IMG/VR virus record: IMGVR_UViG_3300049893_000512
Location: 1 to 29,442 of that record
Direction: 5' to 3' (one strand)
DNA: 29,442 nt
Source: a virus
The position numbers and the translations under genes are program-made. Shown one piece after another: positions 8,610 through 28,985 of the stretch; position 1 is the first letter of the stretch; every line of letters starts with the position of its first letter. Under the pieces are notes generated by a model that saw nothing but the letters and a program-made list of their open reading frames with translations, did not search any database and had not been told where the DNA came from.

Positions 8610-9086
8610 ATGGCAACCGGCGCGTTCTTCGCTTCGCTGGGCTACAAGTTTTACGTGAAGGCTGGCACCACCAGCTCTACTGCACCAACGTCCAGCACCG
8701 GCATGACCGAAGTCCTCTCATTGGTCAATGCTGGCATTCAGGGCTCCACTGACACGCAAGAGGTTTTGGATTATGGAAGTGAGCAGGGTTTTAAAGCTCA
8801 GATCCCCGTATCACAGAGCTATTCTATACCTTGCCAGATGAACCTGGATCTAAACGACGCCGGGTATCTTGTACTTAAAGACGCAGCTCTGAACGCCACA
8901 ACTAAGACCGTTCAGTGGTATCGTGAGTCTCCCGAGATGAGCGCTACTGGCTCCCCCGAGAAGCACGCTGGCGTTGCCTTCGTGACCGACTTCTCCGAAG
9001 ACATCCAGGCTGGCAACATTGCCCAGGTTAGCTTCACCCTCACCGGCTACGGCGCTTATACCCACACCGCTGAAACCAACGTCTGA
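8610..9086 (+). CDS. Major tail tube protein
   Basis: A 158-residue protein with the pattern of siphovirus tail tube subunits: N-terminal MATGAFFASLGYKFYVKAG, a loop (VLDYGSEQGFKAQIPVSQSYSIP), a helix-loop (LNDAGYLVLKDAAL) and closing strands (GNIAQVSFTLTGYGAYT). Subunits stack as hexamers around the tape measure. The gene has its own motif copy 20 bases upstream and an intrinsic terminator downstream, so it looks like a self-contained, highly expressed unit. Bases of about 8760-8900 are AT-richer than the flanks. Confidence 0.8.
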   Translation: MATGAFFASLGYKFYVKAGTTSSTAPTSSTGMTEVLSLVNAGIQGSTDTQEVLDYGSEQGFKAQIPVSQSYSIPCQMNLDLNDAGYLVLKDAALNATTKTVQWYRESPEMSATGSPEKHAGVAFVTDFSEDIQAGNIAQVSFTLTGYGAYTHTAETNV

Positions 9087-9165
9087 TACTAAGTAACCCC
9101 ATACGCCAGGGCGCCCGACTATGGAGAGCAGCTGTGAACGCTGCTACCATCCGCGAGTGCTACGG

Positions 9166-9204
9166 AGCCGGCGCTGCCTTCATGGTGTGGGCGCCGGCTT
9201 TTTT
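9166..9204 (+). terminator. Strong intrinsic terminator after the tail tube gene
   Basis: AGCCGGCGC (9166-9174) pairs perfectly with GCGCCGGCT (9191-9199), and a run of T reaches 9204. It separates the plus-strand tail tube gene from the convergent minus-strand pair. No T-tract exists on the other strand, so it acts only on plus-strand transcription. Confidence 0.85.
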
Positions 9205-9211
9205 GTGGTCG

Positions 9212-9658
9212 TTACCCGCGGTCGAGTTCACGCCACCGCTGCACGAAGTACCGATCAAATGGCTGTGCCTCCAGCGCCGGTTTGATCCAGTCACGGCCTG
9301 GCAGGTCAATGCTCCGCACAGCCCCGTTACGGCCGACGAACTCAGCGGTATCACCGGAGAAGATGTCCTTTGCGTAAGGAGCCGTCCACCCGATTTCCAT
9401 CTGGACACCGCTGTCCGTTTCTGACACCTGCGGTTCGGTCTGGCTATCGGCGAACTCGCCGGTGTCCACGATGTTGCGCTTACCGGCCTTGACCAACCTG
9501 CCATTCTTGCGCAGGGTGTCCCGAGGCCAAGGGAACTGCGATGAGTTGATCTCGTTCTGCAGCTGTGGCCCCAGCACATCGCCGTAGTCGGTGAGGATGC
9601 GCCGCGGCACCCGCCGCATCAGGCGGTCAGCGTTCCAGCTGACCAGCCGGAAGCTCAC
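9212..9658 (-). CDS. Tail completion / neck protein (HK97 gp10-like), inverted
   Basis: A 148-residue protein with the pattern of HK97 gp10-type neck or tail-completion proteins: an N-terminal basic helix (NADRLMRRVPRRIL), RNIVDTGEFADSQ, a strand ending WTAPYAKDIFSG, and a C-terminal PGRDWIKPALEAQPFDRYF helix. Such proteins join the finished tail to the head. The GTG start overlaps the stop of the upstream minus-strand gene (GTGA), so the two are coupled. It is encoded opposite to all surrounding late genes and runs head-on toward the tail tube terminator. Confidence 0.8.
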   Translation of the reverse strand: MSFRLVSWNADRLMRRVPRRILTDYGDVLGPQLQNEINSSQFPWPRDTLRKNGRLVKAGKRNIVDTGEFADSQTEPQVSETDSGVQMEIGWTAPYAKDIFSGDTAEFVGRNGAVRSIDLPGRDWIKPALEAQPFDRYFVQRWRELDRG

Positions 9659-10050
9659 GCCTGCCCCCTGCTGATCAGCTGCACCTTCTCCCCCAGCACC
9701 GCAGCAAGCGTTTCGCCGAGCAGGCCGGTGTTGCCGTAGGGCAGCCGTAGCGCCTTGACCTCACAGCGCACTGGATCCTCCCCAGCAAAAGTCAGCGTGC
9801 CTTGGGAGCCCACCTGCACCCGCGAGTCAAACGCCATCGGCACCACGGCATAACCCTCATAGAGCGTGTCGAGCTGATCAACGCCGGGGTAGCGGGTGAT
9901 CTCAATGGTCTCCGCCCGCAGGAACATCTCTACTGAGACGGTGGCCGCGGCCGGGCTGACGTTGCCGGTGTCTGGGTCGGTGACGACCCCAGTGCCGGCC
10001 ACGTCAAACACGGCGGTGGCGTTAGCGAGGGCCAAGATTGCTGATGCCAT
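9655..10050 (-). CDS. Probable head-tail joining (stopper-type) protein, inverted
   Basis: A 131-residue beta-rich protein with few charges at its N-terminus (ASAILALANATAVFDVAGTG), then GNVSPAAATVSVEMFLRAETIEI, LTFAGEDPVRCEV and a C-terminal LPYGNTGLLGETLAAVLGEKVQLI. The size, all-beta character and coupling to a gp10-type gene fit a head-closure or stopper protein, but I see no diagnostic motif. I start at the ATG (10050); a TTG two codons upstream overlaps the CGGAAACCTTGG motif and is less likely. It is divergent from the tape measure with about 50 bases between the starts. Confidence 0.72.
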   Translation of the reverse strand: MASAILALANATAVFDVAGTGVVTDPDTGNVSPAAATVSVEMFLRAETIEITRYPGVDQLDTLYEGYAVVPMAFDSRVQVGSQGTLTFAGEDPVRCEVKALRLPYGNTGLLGETLAAVLGEKVQLISRGQA

Positions 10051-10052
10051 AC

Positions 10053-10064
10053 CCAAGGTTTCCG
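10053..10064 (-). promoter_or_regulatory. Start-associated motif, inverted neck genes
   Basis: Minus strand CGGAAACCTTGG, two bases before the ATG of the first inverted gene. Its orientation follows the gene, not the genome. Confidence 0.65.
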
Positions 10065-10101: not shown

Positions 10102-13100
10102 GTGGCGGAACTCGGAGAAGCCGTATTAACAATCCGAGTTGATTCGCAAGCCGCTGAGCGGCAAATTCTGGCATTTAGGCAAGAGATTAGTCGTGCTCTT
10201 GGTGATGTAGGCGAAATCAACTTCAACGGCCTTGAGCGCTCTGCGCGCAGCAGTGGCGAGCGAGCCGGTCGCGCACTGGCGCAGGGCGTAACGCAGGCCA
10301 CGCAAGGCTTACGCTTTGACAGCATTGAAGAAGCGCTCAATTTCTCGGGCGCGCTGGATGGAACACTTAGCGACCTGCGAACTTATCGAGCAGCGTTAGA
10401 AGCCCTCAGGAACGTCACCCAAGCGACTACGCCTGGGTTCTACCAGCTCAACGATGTCATTGCGGCGACGGGTGAAGCCATCCGCAACTACAGCGCCAGC
10501 ACCGACCAGCTGGCAGATGCTGCGCTCCGCACCCGTGTTCGCGAACTAACAGCGCAGCTTCGCGACCAGCGCGAGGAGGCCGCGGCCAACGCTCGGGTCG
10601 ATCGAGAGTGGGTTCAGGCTATCCGCACTATCGAGAGCGCCCAGCGCAGCGCGGCGGCTGCAACTCGTATTGCCAACCAAGCCTTTCGGGACCAAGTAGC
10701 GGCGGTTGGATCACTCGCCCGCAAAGGTGCTGGTGATGTAGCTGGCGCAGTGGGCGCGGTCGGCAAAGGCGTTGGGGCCGCGGTACGCGCCGGAAAAGTC
10801 GGCTACAGCATCGGAGCGGAGTTTGGCATTTTTGAGGAGCCGAAGGTAGGCCCGATCAAGACCGCGATCTCGCAGGTCATTGAGCGCTACAAGTTCCTCG
10901 GCGAGCAAGCCACCACCACCCGCGGAATCATTCTGCGCAGCTTGGAAGGCGTCGGCGCAGGTGCCGGCCTGATCAAGATCGCTGAGTACGCAGATCAGCT
11001 GCGCTCCGCGCTGAACGGTGTCAGTGTCGCCGGCAAGGCCACTGAAGGGGCAGTGACTGGGTTGTCGCGCTTCTTCGACTACTTCTCAAAAAGCGGCCTT
11101 GGCAGTGTTGGGCCCCTGAAAGACGTATTTAGGGCGCTGGCCGATGTCGGCGATGCGACTTCAAGCGTCACGAGCCTGACCGATCAGCTGCTGCAGCTCG
11201 GGACAAAAGGTGTCGGAGCTGGGGTTGATGGAGTCGAGGCTCTTGTCAAAGGCTTCACTGCATTACCACCAGCGGCCCAGGCAGCGGCGCTTGCAGCGCC
11301 CGCTGTCTTTGCCGCGCTGAGCGGCCCCCTAAGCGTCAAGGCAAAGGAGGAGCTGAACAAGATTCTGAGCCAGCTCGATCAGATCCAGTCAAGGTCTATT
11401 GGCGTTACGTCGGGCCTTGCGCAGGCCATCAACGATCTGGGCAAGGCTGAGTTCGACGCGCAGCCGAAGCTGCTACCCCCTGCCACAGACGCGCTTAAGC
11501 AACCACTCAGCGAAATTCTCAGCGCCCAGCAAACCAGCAAGAACGTTGAAGACGCGATCAACCAGAGCCGCGAGCGCGGTGTTCGGTTCCTTGAGAAGCA
11601 AGTCCAAGAGCAGCAACGGCTGATTGATCAGGGTCTGTTGCTACGCCCTCTGTCCCAGAGCCCAGTAGTTACCAGAGATCGGCTGCTGCCGCCCGGCGCA
11701 CCAGCCGCGTCACTGCCTAACCCCAACCAGTACCAGTCTCCGATCGGCCCGAACGAGTCGCCTGCCGTACTGGCTGAGCGTCGGCAGGCCCAGCTTTTGG
11801 ACGACCTCGCCGATGTCACCGGCAAGCGACTCGTGATTGAGAAGTCGATCCTGAAGCTGCAGGAAGCTACACGTCAGGCGTATTCGCGCCAAGAGCGAAA
11901 AGCGCGAGCGATAGCCGAGTTCGGCGCTTCACCAATCGATGGGCGCTTGCGGGACGGCCGCCTTATTCCTGGCTCTCCCGCCGCCAAGAAGGATCGTCAG
12001 CGCCGAGTGAACGACGCTGCCGGGAGTGCCATCATCGGCGGCGCGTTCCCTCTGCTGTTCGGTCAGGGGCTTGGCGCCAGTCTCGGCGGCGGCCTTGGCG
12101 GCCTTGGCGGAGGAGCACTCGGCGGCCAATTCGGTTTTGGCCTCTCACTGGTCGGCACGGCGGTCGGCGCCCAGTTTGATCAGGCCAGCCAAAAGCTGCA
12201 GACCCTTGGCAGTGCACTGAGCGACCCAATCGGGAAGTTCGGCGAGCTTCAGCAAGCCGGGCTGCTCTCATCGAAGGGTTTGGAACGCCAGATCCAGGCG
12301 CTGATCGACACCGGTAGGCAGGCTGAAGCCGCTGCGCTGATCCAAAAGGATCTTGCCACCACCTACGGCGACTTACAGGCAGCCAAGGGTCTGGCCAGGC
12401 AGAGCGATGAGCTGAACCGGTCGTGGACGCGACTGACCGTGACCCTTGCAGACCTAGGGATTTCACCACTGGTCAGCCTGCTGGGCGAGACCAGTAATGC
12501 TGTGCAGGGTTTTGCGCTGGCGATTAAAACCCTGCGTGACGCGCTGCCCAACCTGCCGACACCGTTTGGCACGCCGAAGGAAATCAGCCAGAACTTGACC
12601 TCGCAAGGTGGCATCACTGGGGGGCTGGCGCGGTTTGCCGGCGACTACGCCAAGAACTTTCAGCGCATTTTGTTCTCCAACGCCTTCCTGCCCGGAAGCG
12701 GAGTGGACACCGTGCTTCGCTTGGGCAGTGGACTTGGCCAAGTGTTTGGCGCAAACAAATCCGCGACCTCACCGGCCACCGCCGCGGGCGAAGCCAACGC
12801 TGAGGCATCGACGAAAGCGCGCCAGGAACTGCTGGCGGTTACCCGCCAACTGATCACCTCAGAAGCGCAGAACAACACCACGCTCACCACCGGCTTGAAG
12901 CTGCGGCAAAGCCAGCTGCAGGAGGCGCAGGCGATTGCGAACCTAACGGAGACCGACCCCAAAGCTCGCCAAGTTCGCATCGAGGAAATCCAACGTGCGG
13001 CGAATGAGGAGCGCGCTCGTCTGCGCGAGCAGGCGCGGGAGGCCGAGCGCAGTGGCATCCGCGATCTAGGCCGCGCCCTGCAGCTGGTCGGCGTCTACGG

Positions 13101-14073
13101 CACACAGCGCCAGATCAAGGAAGAGCAGCTCAAGCTGGACGAGGCTCGCCGTGTTGCAGAGCAGGCGCAGCAGAGCTTCAACAAAAGCGCCACGAAGGAC
13201 AAGGCCGAAGAGAACGCCCTGAACGCGGCGATCCTGAAGTACCGCCAGACGGAGCTGGAGGTCACCGAAAACATTCGCCGGCTTGAGACGGAGCGCTGGG
13301 CCAACGCGATTGCCGCGGCCAACCGTCTTAAGTCGATCCAAGAGCAAACCGCGATCCAGCAGCAGCGCCCGAACCTCACCGGCACCGGCATTGGCGCGCT
13401 GCAGTCGGTGGTGTCATTCCGCGATGCCGTTCGCGCAGAGCAGGAAGCGCAGGCGCGGCTACGCGCTGAGCCTGGCAATGAACAGCTGCAGCAGGCTGCC
13501 CAGGCGGCTAGTGCCGAGGTCAGACGTGCTGCCGCCCAGACCCGCTCGGACCTGATCGACGCCTACAACGCCGCCAAGGACTCGGTGCAGGCGATTAGCC
13601 GAAGCATCCAGGACGGAGCGCAGTCGCTTGCGGAACTGCAGAACACAAGCGGCCAAGGCGTTAATAAGTATCTATCGCCTCAGCAAGTCATTCAACGCCA
13701 AGAGGCGTTAAACCCTATCTTGTTACAACGGGCATCGGAGGCTCTTAACCGGTACAGGGAACGCACCGGTCAAGAAGTCAACCTGCAGGTCAGCGGAACC
13801 TTGGAGCAGCGCAATGCCCAACTGATTGATATTGAAAGGGCGTTTAACAATGAGAATCGCGCAGTGGAAAACTTAACCATCCAGAACAATGCACTCACTC
13901 AGGCAACAAACGACTCTAATCTTATTACTGCTGCGCTAACAGCAGTTGGCGTTAAACTGTCTGAAACCATTCCCACACTTGCCACCAACATTAAAGAGTT
14001 AGCTGGCAAGAAGTGGGACGTGAACGTCACGGTTTACCAAGACGGGAAATCTCCCATCATCCCGAGTATCTGA
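10102..14073 (+). CDS. Tail tape measure protein
   Basis: A 1,323-residue protein that sets tail length and is threaded inside the tail tube. The N-terminal 550 residues are mostly Ala/Gln/Arg-rich helices. A small-residue, membrane-like segment follows (about 638-690: SAIIGGAFPLLFGQG, then Gly-rich GLGG repeats), probably used for membrane passage at DNA entry. The GAFPLLFGQG signature is one I associate with cyanobacterial phage tape measures. Residues about 900-1130 form long Gln/Glu/Arg-rich coiled coils (EEIQRAANEERARLREQ). By the usual rule of about 1.5 Å per residue the tail would be near 200 nm. GTG start. From about 13650 to the end, base composition turns AT-richer, suggesting an exchanged 3' end. 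It lies directly ahead of the tail-tip genes. Confidence 0.94.
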   Translation: MAELGEAVLTIRVDSQAAERQILAFRQEISRALGDVGEINFNGLERSARSSGERAGRALAQGVTQATQGLRFDSIEEALNFSGALDGTLSDLRTYRAALEALRNVTQATTPGFYQLNDVIAATGEAIRNYSASTDQLADAALRTRVRELTAQLRDQREEAAANARVDREWVQAIRTIESAQRSAAAATRIANQAFRDQVAAVGSLARKGAGDVAGAVGAVGKGVGAAVRAGKVGYSIGAEFGIFEEPKVGPIKTAISQVIERYKFLGEQATTTRGIILRSLEGVGAGAGLIKIAEYADQLRSALNGVSVAGKATEGAVTGLSRFFDYFSKSGLGSVGPLKDVFRALADVGDATSSVTSLTDQLLQLGTKGVGAGVDGVEALVKGFTALPPAAQAAALAAPAVFAALSGPLSVKAKEELNKILSQLDQIQSRSIGVTSGLAQAINDLGKAEFDAQPKLLPPATDALKQPLSEILSAQQTSKNVEDAINQSRERGVRFLEKQVQEQQRLIDQGLLLRPLSQSPVVTRDRLLPPGAPAASLPNPNQYQSPIGPNESPAVLAERRQAQLLDDLADVTGKRLVIEKSILKLQEATRQAYSRQERKARAIAEFGASPIDGRLRDGRLIPGSPAAKKDRQRRVNDAAGSAIIGGAFPLLFGQGLGASLGGGLGGLGGGALGGQFGFGLSLVGTAVGAQFDQASQKLQTLGSALSDPIGKFGELQQAGLLSSKGLERQIQALIDTGRQAEAAALIQKDLATTYGDLQAAKGLARQSDELNRSWTRLTVTLADLGISPLVSLLGETSNAVQGFALAIKTLRDALPNLPTPFGTPKEISQNLTSQGGITGGLARFAGDYAKNFQRILFSNAFLPGSGVDTVLRLGSGLGQVFGANKSATSPATAAGEANAEASTKARQELLAVTRQLITSEAQNNTTLTTGLKLRQSQLQEAQAIANLTETDPKARQVRIEEIQRAANEERARLREQAREAERSGIRDLGRALQLVGVYGTQRQIKEEQLKLDEARRVAEQAQQSFNKSATKDKAEENALNAAILKYRQTELEVTENIRRLETERWANAIAAANRLKSIQEQTAIQQQRPNLTGTGIGALQSVVSFRDAVRAEQEAQARLRAEPGNEQLQQAAQAASAEVRRAAAQTRSDLIDAYNAAKDSVQAISRSIQDGAQSLAELQNTSGQGVNKYLSPQQVIQRQEALNPILLQRASEALNRYRERTGQEVNLQVSGTLEQRNAQLIDIERAFNNENRAVENLTIQNNALTQATNDSNLITAALTAVGVKLSETIPTLATNIKELAGKKWDVNVTVYQDGKSPIIPSI

Positions 14074-21645: not shown

Positions 21646-22212
21646 ATGCTGTCCTTTGTTAAGCCACCGGCTCCTCGTAAGACACGCCTGATCGGCAACG
21701 ACCAATGCGGGGTGCTGGAGGTTGAGGAGCGGGGTGGGCTGACGGTGGGTGAATCCGCCGCCATCAGCGAACTGCTGGCGGATGAGCAGAGCAGCTTTGT
21801 TCGCGGTGCGCAGATCGCAGACCAGATCGCCACAGAGGAAAACATCTCGCTGGCCGAGGCGTTTTCCATCGTGGAGAAATCCATCAGTGGTCAGCCGCTG
21901 GAGGACAAAGCAGAGGCGATCCGCTTGAAGCACGCTGAGCGCATTGCGGAGGTAGCGCGGGTGTACGCCTTAGCAGGGCAGAGGAATCTGGAGGCCACGG
22001 TCACTTCGCTGGTGAGGTCGCGTTGTGGTGCTCCCGAGTGGACCTTGGCTGACACCCGCGCTATGGCCAAACCCCTGTTTGATGGGCTGTGGCAGTTAGC
22101 GCAGGATGAGCAGGAAGCAGAAGCCATGCCGTCTGAGCCGCCATCCGCTGAGGATCTGGGAAAGCCGCGGCGGGGACGTGGCAGAAGCCGACAACCGATT
22201 GGGCTGCAATAG
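21646..22212 (+). CDS. Tail assembly chaperone, short form (lambda G-like)
   Basis: A 188-residue acidic, largely helical protein. Helices include LTVGESAAISELLADE, SLAEAFSIVEKSISG and DTRAMAKPLFDGLWQLAQDEQEAEA. It ends with a basic tail (PRRGRGRSR) produced only in the zero frame. Codons 171-173 read CTG-GGA-AAG, giving the heptamer G GGA AAG used by phage lambda for its G-to-GT shift. Tail assembly chaperones coat the tape measure before tube polymerisation. This one lies about 7.6 kb after the tape-measure gene rather than directly before it. A motif copy is 22 bases upstream of the ATG. Confidence 0.78.
   Translation: MLSFVKPPAPRKTRLIGNDQCGVLEVEERGGLTVGESAAISELLADEQSSFVRGAQIADQIATEENISLAEAFSIVEKSISGQPLEDKAEAIRLKHAERIAEVARVYALAGQRNLEATVTSLVRSRCGAPEWTLADTRAMAKPLFDGLWQLAQDEQEAEAMPSEPPSAEDLGKPRRGRGRSRQPIGLQ
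22158..22164 (+). other. Programmed -1 frameshift site GGGAAAG
   Basis: The heptamer fits X XXY YYZ in the zero frame (G GGA AAG) and is the same heptamer used by lambda gene G. After the slip the ribosome reads GCC from base 22164 in the -1 frame, which stays open to 22820. A GC-rich stretch containing GCCGCGGC follows immediately and could form a stimulatory structure. Confidence 0.85.
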
Positions 22213-22820
22213 CGTTTGAGCTATTCACCGGCTACCCCGGCCAGTACAACCGCAGCACCTTCCACGCGGAACTGAGGCAGGAGGTGCTGGCGGCTTGGCG
22301 CGAGCTGAGTCGAATCCGCCGGGATGCCGCGGCCATCACCGAGCTGCCCACTGCGCAGTTGATGGCGCTCACCGCCAACTTGAACCGCGACCCCAAGCGC
22401 AAGCCGGACCCGTTCACCGCGGCGGACTTCACCTGCTTCCGCGAGCGAGAGCGGCCGGAGGACGCCTTCACGCCGGAGGTGGCGGCAGTGGCGTTGGACC
22501 TACGCGCCGAGAACAACGCACCGCCGTTGTTGCTGGCGGTCTGGCCGCAGATCTTGGCGTCTGCCAAGAACGGCGCTGCAGCCAAGCCGTTAGAGGTGCG
22601 GGCCTACCGCAGCGATGACGAAGCGGTGTGGGTGTTGGCGCCGAAGTGGGAGGGCCGCCATTGCCGCGGTGGGTTGGTGCTGGTGCGTGGCCGCGTCATT
22701 GGCCCGATCACGCTGCGGGACATTGACAAGCCGCTGATCACCCACCGGCTGGTGGTGCCTGAGAAGCCAGGCGCCGGCTGGATTGAGGCGGGGTGTCTGC
22801 TGCTGGCGGCGGAATCCTAG
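22164..22820 (+). CDS. Tail assembly chaperone, T-like extension made by -1 frameshift
   Basis: This frame has no ATG, GTG or TTG between the in-frame stop at 22149-22151 and the GTG at 22284, yet it reads as sensible protein from the slippery site: QKPTTDWAAIAFELFTGYPG, then the helix around 22284. Further on comes ALTANLNRDPKRKPDPFTAADF, a signature of T-type extensions (N-x-NRDPKRKP-x-x-F-x-x-x-DF). The fused GT product would be about 391 residues: 173 from the zero frame plus 218. The GTG at 22284 is therefore an internal codon. The C-terminal 100 residues (EAVWVLAPKWEGRHCRGGLVLVRG) are beta-rich and longer than in lambda. Confidence 0.82.
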   Translation, partial: AAAGTWQKPTTDWAAIAFELFTGYPGQYNRSTFHAELRQEVLAAWRELSRIRRDAAAITELPTAQLMALTANLNRDPKRKPDPFTAADFTCFRERERPEDAFTPEVAAVALDLRAENNAPPLLLAVWPQILASAKNGAAAKPLEVRAYRSDDEAVWVLAPKWEGRHCRGGLVLVRGRVIGPITLRDIDKPLITHRLVVPEKPGAGWIEAGCLLLAAES

Positions 22821-22824: not shown

Positions 22825-23235
22825 ATGGATGTGCTCACCCTGCGGCAAGAACTGGAGTCGCTGCTCGTTGATGAGCTGGGCACCTACACCTTGGGCAATG
22901 GCGCCGTGACGCCGGCTGTTGCGGTGCGTGCCACAGGTGAGGCAATGCCATCAGGCACCAAGGTGTCAGGGGTGGAGCTGATCATCCGCCGCAACCCAGA
23001 CCTAGAGCCGGTCAACGCCTACCAGCGGGAGGTGGCGCTGCGCAAATGGCGGGTGTACCTCGTCGATTGGGCGGGAGATCGCAACCTTGAGCAGCTGGCG
23101 GGGCGAGTGGTGTACGCCTACCCCGGCTGCGAAGTGGAGACGGTCAACGTACCCGAAGGCGCTGGTCCGCAACACCAGATGCGACTGGTCATCACCACTG
23201 GCCCGGATGGGTTGGTGAGTGGCGGGGCAACATGA
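22825..23235 (+). CDS. Possible tail terminator-like protein
   Basis: A 136-residue alpha/beta protein: an opening helix LRQELESLLVDELGTYTLGNG, strands around KVSGVELIIRRNP, a central KWRVYLVDWAG, a helix NLEQLAGRVVYAYPG and a closing strand MRLVITT. The layout of an N-terminal helix, a sheet and a late helix resembles tail-terminator or neck proteins, and I recall similar proteins of unknown function in cyanobacterial phages. The start is the ATG at 22825, three bases after a CGGAATCCTAGG motif that overlaps the upstream stop. An upstream in-frame start would lie within the chaperone gene. Confidence 0.68.
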   Translation: MDVLTLRQELESLLVDELGTYTLGNGAVTPAVAVRATGEAMPSGTKVSGVELIIRRNPDLEPVNAYQREVALRKWRVYLVDWAGDRNLEQLAGRVVYAYPGCEVETVNVPEGAGPQHQMRLVITTGPDGLVSGGAT

Positions 23236-27588: not shown

Positions 27589-27831
27589 GTGGTTGAGATC
27601 TGGGCGGCGATTGTTGGTGCTGGAGTGGCCATTGGCGCCAGCGGCATTGGCTCGTTCATGAAGCGAGACGATGAAGCCTCCCGCGCTGTGATTCGCCTCA
27701 CCGCAGCGGTGGAACACATTGCTGGGGAGGTGAGTCTGCTGCGCGGTGAGATCAAAGAAGACCGGCAAGAGCTGTACCCCAGGCTCAACGCCATTGAGCA
27801 ACGTCTGGCCAAGTTGGAGGGACGCCTTTGA
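27589..27831 (+). CDS. Membrane-anchored coiled-coil protein (holin/haemolysin XhlA-like layout)
   Basis: An 80-residue protein from a GTG: an N-terminal membrane helix (IWAAIVGAGVAIGASGIGSFM, about 4-24), a charged hinge (KRDDEAS) and a coiled coil (AAVEHIAGEVSLLRGEIKEDRQ, LNAIEQRLAKLEGRL). This one-membrane-helix plus coiled-coil shape is shared by XhlA-type lysis helpers and small phage spanin-like proteins. It lies directly upstream of the endolysin, whose TTG start overlaps its stop (TTGA). A longer reading upstream overlaps the previous gene in full and is not used. Confidence 0.7.
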   Translation: MVEIWAAIVGAGVAIGASGIGSFMKRDDEASRAVIRLTAAVEHIAGEVSLLRGEIKEDRQELYPRLNAIEQRLAKLEGRL

Positions 27832-28985
27832 TCCAGCTTCGAGATGCGGCTAAATGGTTTAAGGGTCAACCCCACCAGCTGGCCGCGTGGGATTGGTTGC
27901 AGGCCGAGCTGAGCAAGAAACAGCTTGAGGAGTTTGCGGAGCTGTACCGCGCAGCGGTGGAGGTCAAGCAGCCACTCCCGCCGCCGTGGCTGGCGCCCTC
28001 GCTGCGGATTATTAAGTCATTTGAGGGGCTACGCCTAGAGGCGTACAAGTGCCCAGCGGGTATTCCGACGCTGGGCTATGGAGCAACACGCACCAAAGAC
28101 GGCCCGGTGCGGATGGGGATGACGATCACCGAGCAGCAGGCTGAGGAGCTGCTGGCCCATGACGTGGAGCAGCTTTACGGCCCTGGCGTCCTGACCCTGA
28201 TCCCCTCGGCGGCCAAGTGGCGGCCGAATCAGATCGCGGCGTTGGTGAGCTTCAGCTTCAATGTGGGCCTCGGGGCGCTGGAGGACTCCACCCTCCGCAA
28301 GCGCCTCAACGCCGGGGAAGACCCTTGCACCGTCGTTAAGGAAGAACTGCCCCGCTGGTGTCATGCCGGCGAGGCGGTTTTGGCGGGGCTGGAGCGTCGC
28401 CGCGCTGCTGAGGTGGCCTTGTTCTGCGGCGATGTCGCTACCGCACCGTCATCGCCCGTGCTGCGGGTGCCGTATTACAGCCAGCGGGACAGCGCCACGG
28501 ACCAAGCGCTGCGGATGTGTTTCTCGTCGAGCTGCGCGATGCTCCTGGCTTCGCTGAAGCCTGGCGCGATCAGCGGACCTAACGCTGACGACCAGTACCT
28601 CAAACGGGTGCAGCAGTACGGCGACAGCACCGACGCATCAGCTCAGCTCAAGGCCCTCGCCAGCTACGGCGTGAAGGCGCAGCTGATGCAGAACTGCGAG
28701 TGGGTGTACCTAGAGCGCCAGATCAAAGCCGGTATCCCCGTGCCCTGTGGGTTCTTGCACAAGGGCAGTGTGGGCAAGCCTTCTGGTGGTGGGCATTGGC
28801 TTTGCGTGATCGGCCTGACGCCAAGCCACGTCATTGTCAACGACCCCTACGGCGAGATGGACGTGATCAATGGCACCTATATCAGCTCAAAGGGAGCGGG
28901 GATTGCCTACTCGCGTAAGAACTGGGGGCCAAGGTGGCTCGTTGAGGGGCCAGCAAGCGGCTGGGCGATCATTGCGCAGCCGTAA
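27828..28985 (+). CDS. Bifunctional endolysin: GH24 lysozyme plus C39-like peptidase
   Basis: Cell-wall hydrolase of 385 residues. The N-terminal AAKWFKGQPHQLAAWDWLQ segment (about 7-25) is shared with cyanophage lysins. The lysozyme domain (about 58-202) holds Glu66 in KSFEGL, Cys75 in AYKCPAG and Thr81 in PTLGYG, spaced E-8-C-5-T; Cys takes the usual Asp place, a known natural variant of the triad. The C-terminal domain (about 210-385) resembles C39-type papain-like peptidases, with VPYYSQRD, Cys231 (MCFSSSCAML), His323 (GGGHWLCVIG) and Asp339 (VNDPYG). The two activities would cut the glycan and the peptide or another bond. The TTG start is coupled to the upstream stop. There is no signal peptide, so export should need a holin. 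Confidence 0.93.
   Translation: MIQLRDAAKWFKGQPHQLAAWDWLQAELSKKQLEEFAELYRAAVEVKQPLPPPWLAPSLRIIKSFEGLRLEAYKCPAGIPTLGYGATRTKDGPVRMGMTITEQQAEELLAHDVEQLYGPGVLTLIPSAAKWRPNQIAALVSFSFNVGLGALEDSTLRKRLNAGEDPCTVVKEELPRWCHAGEAVLAGLERRRAAEVALFCGDVATAPSSPVLRVPYYSQRDSATDQALRMCFSSSCAMLLASLKPGAISGPNADDQYLKRVQQYGDSTDASAQLKALASYGVKAQLMQNCEWVYLERQIKAGIPVPCGFLHKGSVGKPSGGGHWLCVIGLTPSHVIVNDPYGEMDVINGTYISSKGAGIAYSRKNWGPRWLVEGPASGWAIIAQP

Follow-up and report, generated by a model that had tools for sequence, protein, structure and literature searches.

A predicted G/GT tail-assembly chaperone cassette with a conserved -1 frameshift site in uncultivated cyanophages

The virus record IMGVR_UViG_3300049893_000512, whose whole length of 29,442 bases is referred to here as the window, contains two overlapping reading frames that very probably encode the G/GT tail-assembly chaperones, the GT form being produced through programmed -1 ribosomal frameshifting. 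As judged from the sequence, the pair resembles the G/GT class in that the second ORF lies in the -1 frame without a conserved start of its own, and a conserved in-phase heptamer is located near the 3' end of G. Homologues of the pair were found in cultured cyanophages and in a large group of uncultivated relatives.

Reading frames and slippery heptamer

The G ORF occupies 21646-22212 on the plus strand and encodes 188 aa. Its codons 171-173 are CTG GGA AAG, and the heptamer GGGAAAG at 22158-22164 sits in X XXY YYZ phase, which agreed with the sequence and translations as the earlier note had read them. The zero-frame stop is located at 22210-22212, and G thus ends 15 codons plus the stop 3' of the slip site. 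In the -1 frame, a TGA at 22149-22151 is followed by a frame that is open from 22152 and ends at the TAG at 22818-22820, and no ATG, GTG, or TTG was found in this frame between 22152 and the GTG at 22284. Translation of the window therefore bore out the previous claim of a frame open to 22820 with no start before 22284. The T extension (22164-22820, plus strand) comprises 218 codons plus the stop, so the slip product has 173 + 218 = 391 residues with the junction peptide L-G-K-A-A-A-G-T; the size and the peptide were both as previously proposed.

To scan the window ORFs, a script was used whose positive control, the lambda GGGAAAG at 10109, was recovered; the heptamer is thus the one of lambda, as had been noted. 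In total, 12 heptamers fitting XXXYYYZ were detected across 8660 in-phase codon positions, and GGGAAAG occurred once (22158-22164). Within the overlap of approximately 20 codons, the estimated chance was approximately 0.002 for GGGAAAG and 0.03 for any XXXYYYZ, conservation not being counted. As either GGGAAAG or AAAAAAG was conserved in phase across 72 distinct contexts, chance was removed as its source.

The heptamer G_GGA_AAG shifts very readily in E. coli, and lambda G and GT are made in this way (PMC5009743). In the window, most ribosomes would stay in the zero frame through CTG GGA AAG, terminate at 22210-22212, and release G, while in a minority of them the tRNA-Gly on GGA and the tRNA-Lys on AAG would slip back by one base and pair with GGG and AAA instead. 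These ribosomes would read on through T to 22820 and make GT, with 391 residues. If the roles are as in lambda, G would coat the tape-measure protein and the tail-tube protein would be recruited by the T part of GT, so that the slip rate would set the G:GT ratio needed for tail assembly. The slip, its rate, and the binding partners are what we infer for this cassette.

Conservation and selection at the slip site

Searches with T, G, and the T alignment returned over 100 loci. After duplicates and loci starting inside T were dropped, and four distant loci (rumen-type and similar) that matched only over a short stretch of the T domain were set aside, 72 distinct contexts remained, including three cultured phages (P-SS2, S-CBS2, and S-CRES1). 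Homologues of G were present in approximately 70 loci and in the three cultured phages. All 72 contexts held an in-phase heptamer at the same place, GGGAAAG in 48 and AAAAAAG in 24, with the T frame always -1 to G, and the distance from heptamer to stop was identical in 52 of them. The Gly codon of the GGGAAAG form was GGA in 48 of 48 cases, compared with 8% of the Gly codons elsewhere in the same genes, and in the AAAAAAG form a Leu before Lys-Lys, where there was one, was always encoded by CTA, compared with 8% of Leu codons. These heptamer and codon counts are less than independent owing to the relatedness of the contexts. On the protein tree, to which the two heptamer columns contribute slightly because their residues stayed unmasked in 23 rows, the heptamer forms must have switched at least nine times, with three substitutions needed each time, and no intermediate or lost heptamer was seen among the 72 contexts. 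Without selection for slipperiness, such a pattern in the sequences would be difficult to account for.

Two frames with a one-base offset may also look like one original gene that was split by a real frameshift mutation or by a sequencing error. This origin was ruled out, since the identical offset occurs at the identical place in 72 distinct contexts, cultured phages included. Slippage of RNA polymerase, rather than of the ribosome, could also make a fusion, and one third of the relatives carry AAAAAAG, which contains a short A run. However, the other two thirds, including the window, carry GGGAAAG, which has no homopolymer longer than three, and the heptamer always keeps the same phase relative to the codons, a condition that slippage by the polymerase would not require. 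An origin of the fusion in transcription is therefore scarcely credible.

Another explanation is that T is a separate gene, started from the internal GTG at 22284 or coupled to the translation of G, with the heptamer being incidental. In the window, a weak GAGG is located six bases 5' of this GTG, and database annotators of S-CBS2 and P-SS2 picked internal starts. Nevertheless, the GAGG is absent at the other loci with GTG at the equivalent codon, and the first available T start varies from codon 33 to codon 105 among relatives. Moreover, conservation extends over T residues 1-40 (TDWA..F.EL..GYPGQF..ELR), and in the segment from the G stop to the earliest possible T start, the pN/pS values were 0.51 for the T frame and 1.1-1.2 for the remaining frames. 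T is therefore selected as a protein ahead of any start codon. A separate T gene would also leave the fixed heptamer unexplained, and we consider it very improbable. The heptamer, the open -1 frame, and the lack of a conserved alternative start across the 72 contexts instead support the lambda-type -1 frameshift that the earlier note had suggested. Its expectation that gene callers would choose an internal start also held in cultured phages: in the records of P-SS2, S-CBS2, and S-CRES1, two proteins are entered separately and T starts from an internal codon, the second gene of S-CBS2 being annotated from 9910 (T residue 40) and that of P-SS2 from T residue 48.

The window carries GAGG, a Shine-Dalgarno-like tetramer, at 22150-22153, and GAGG, AGGA, or GGAG was found upstream of the heptamer in 64 of the 72 contexts, mostly starting at -11 or -10. 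The tetramer is a possible stimulator of the frameshift, and it also encodes conserved acidic residues. RNA folding 3' of the heptamer showed no conserved structure: the consensus fold of 26 sequences gave no pairs, and single folds were near random except in S-CRES1 (z -5.3) and L024 (z -2.6). In S-CRES1, a very stable hairpin lies directly past the heptamer (L036:8020-8099), which was absent in the other lineages tested. In S-CBS2 (L035:9787-9796), S-CRES1 (L036:8013-8022), and a contig filed under Myxococcales (L107:9986-9995), the zero-frame stop immediately follows the heptamer, whereas 15 codons lie between them in the window; the close stop may have an effect on slippage.

Protein families and predicted folds

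T residues 42-108 (22287-22487) matched the Pfam family PF06223, Phage_tail_T (Minor tail protein T), with an E-value of 3e-5 and 24.8 bits, below the curated cut-off of 25.9. The match covers most of the model, and 10 of 12 relatives also matched, with E-values down to 2.7e-5. The segment NLNRDPKRKP, previously pointed out as typical of T domains, falls inside this sub-threshold match. G matched no family in Pfam, PHROGs, or NCBIfam, and single sequences of lambda G and T did not match these proteins in hhalign profile comparison. Going by sequence, G and T make up a separate family of cyanosiphovirus proteins, in which the link of the T domain to PF06223 is weak.

The G model showed a predicted beta hairpin plus helices (pLDDT 82). 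In the PDB, its best Foldseek match had an E-value of 0.47, and the VIA Z scores of at most 6.6 for the helical model were not meaningful; in BFVD, its best match was F4YCJ6 (E 8e-10). The T model was only fair (pLDDT 65) and returned nothing from the PDB with a Z of 5 or more. The second BFVD match of the G model was A0A346A5Z9 and that of the T model was A0A346A5Z8; as these accessions are consecutive, they are perhaps neighbouring genes of one phage.

A feature beyond those described in the earlier note is an extra C-terminal region of GT, for which AlphaFold2 predicted strands at T residues 147-215 (22602-22808; pLDDT approximately 60-82) and which is conserved in relatives. This region of approximately 70 residues matched BFVD A0A346A5Z8, a protein of 78 aa, with a TM score of 0.77 by target, an rmsd of 1.8, and an E-value of 1.9e-3. 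Lambda shares with the window the GGGAAAG heptamer, the -1 shift near the end of G (predicted for the window), and a T-type extension. However, lambda G and T gave no detectable alignment to the window proteins, the annotated lambda T ORF has 144 aa compared with 218 codons in the window extension, and the strand-rich C-terminal region sets the window GT apart from that of lambda.

Gene order and cultured relatives

The customary place of G/GT is between the tail-tube and tape-measure genes, and this place was not taken as defining. In the window, terminase, portal, capsid, and tail-tube (8610-9086) genes are followed by the putative tape-measure gene (10102-14073, plus strand, 1323 aa), tail and fibre-like genes, and then G-GT. 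The cassette is therefore located approximately 7.6 kb after the putative tape-measure gene and not between this gene and the tail-tube gene, which is a second feature beyond the earlier note and differs from the V-G-T-H order of lambda. The tape-measure assignment is inferred from the place of the gene after the tail-tube gene and from its length, which varies among relatives; searches against Pfam, PHROGs, and NCBIfam and by hhalign gave no family match for it. In the relatives that hold both, the matched part of the putative tape-measure gene is followed, past fibre-like genes and at a distance of 5.6-7.9 kb, by a block of G, GT, and a small gene.

Homologues of G and T with an in-phase heptamer occur in P-SS2, which infects Prochlorococcus, and in S-CBS2 and S-CRES1, which infect Synechococcus; the G homologues matched with E-values of 1e-12, 1e-6, and 2e-7, respectively. 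An in-phase GGGAAAG is also present in S-CRES3, and the protein comparison gave a match for S-CRES2 similar to that for S-CRES1. As in the window, the three phages show a predicted -1 shift, a long C-terminal extension, and the same following gene, whereas the T identity between them and the window is 22-28%. This following gene (22825-23235, plus strand), possibly a tail terminator, has homologues behind G-GT in all three phages (E 2e-7 to 3e-13) and is adjacent to the cassette in nearly all loci. With homologous G and T, a heptamer at the junction, and a common downstream neighbour, the window cassette shows every feature by which the cyanosiphovirus family was recognised.

The location of the cassette differs between the lineages. 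In P-SS2, S-CBS2, and S-CRES1-3, it lies ahead of the tail-tube and tape-measure genes, whereas in the window lineage it lies behind fibre-like genes. In S-CBS2 and S-CRES1, two neck-type genes come first, followed by G, GT, an opposite-strand HNH gene, a small gene, tail tube, and tape measure. In P-SS2, G-GT precedes the tape-measure gene by approximately 18 kb, and fibre genes lie in the interval. In the window lineage, a minus-strand homologue of the second neck-type gene lies between the tail-tube gene and the putative tape-measure gene, and a further minus-strand gene adjoins it. These two neck/tail-type genes (9212-10056, minus strand) are inverted, and the inversion is kept in the relatives L007, L013-L015, L024, and L029; in P-SS2, S-CBS2, and S-CRES1, a homologue of 9212-9658 precedes G and is encoded on the plus strand. 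A plus-strand ORF at 9134-9424 that overlaps the inverted gene had no match in any relative and is probably not a gene.

The genome is mosaic. Between 166 and 6428, terminase and capsid are nearest to KBS-S-2A, S-H1, and MED4-184 (capsid identity 53-59%), while between 8610 and 23235, the tail-tube, G-GT, and neighbouring genes match S-CBS2, S-CRES1, and P-SS2. No homologous G or T was found in the regions read of KBS-S-2A, S-H1, and MED4-184, the nearest cultured phages by capsid and terminase. Further downstream, a 385-aa ORF (27828-28985) resembles, by eye only, a lysozyme-type endolysin with an additional C-terminal domain similar to a papain-like peptidase. A genome scan found no prophage copy of the cassette in a cyanobacterium, and the best match was in a MAG labelled Myxococcales. 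In this MAG, a 74.7-kb contig (L107) holds a cyanophage-type cassette with 41% identity to the T of P-SS2, and it is possibly a misbinned phage contig. In other bacterial MAGs with a short T-domain match (L109, L112, and L113), overlapping frames with TTTTTTC in phase around 9755 are possibly another frameshifted chaperone.

With regard to function, lambda G and GT are absent from the virion (PMC5009743). In the virion proteome of P-SS2, Table 2 lists ORFs 061-063 and 066-069 as detected and does not include ORFs 064 (G) and 065 (T) (PMC2784084). As this table takes in only ORFs with annotation, detection, or a metagenome match, its listing rule indicates that 064 and 065 were not detected in the virion (PMC2784084), and this absence agrees with chaperones, as expected. 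The frameshift could be real and its products could still do something other than tail-chaperone work, since G has no known family match, the cassette is distant from the tail-tube and tape-measure genes, and GT carries an extra C-terminal region. Against this, T has a T-domain match, the pair is linked to tail genes in all relatives and adjoins neck and tail genes in S-CBS2 and S-CRES1, and both proteins are missing from the P-SS2 virion list. A function outside tail assembly was accordingly judged unlikely.

The mechanism proposed here is that of lambda G/GT, which is already known, and it is extended to a large group of uncultivated cyanophages. It offers a function for an unnamed gene pair of these phages, and the records of the cultured cyanophages P-SS2, S-CBS2, and S-CRES1-3 are without the fusion protein. 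The window also provides an example of a chaperone cassette located away from the tail-tube and tape-measure genes. Moreover, approximately 70 natural variants of one frameshift site with two heptamer forms provide material for relating slip rate to tail length. As a tentative reading, to which we give a low chance, the cassette may be a distinct kind of chaperone, with a G that has no relation to known G proteins, a GT extended by a C-terminal strand-rich domain, and freedom from the usual neighbours, in which the alternation of heptamers possibly tunes the G:GT ratio to tail length. If this reading is true, chaperone and tape-measure genes need not be adjacent.
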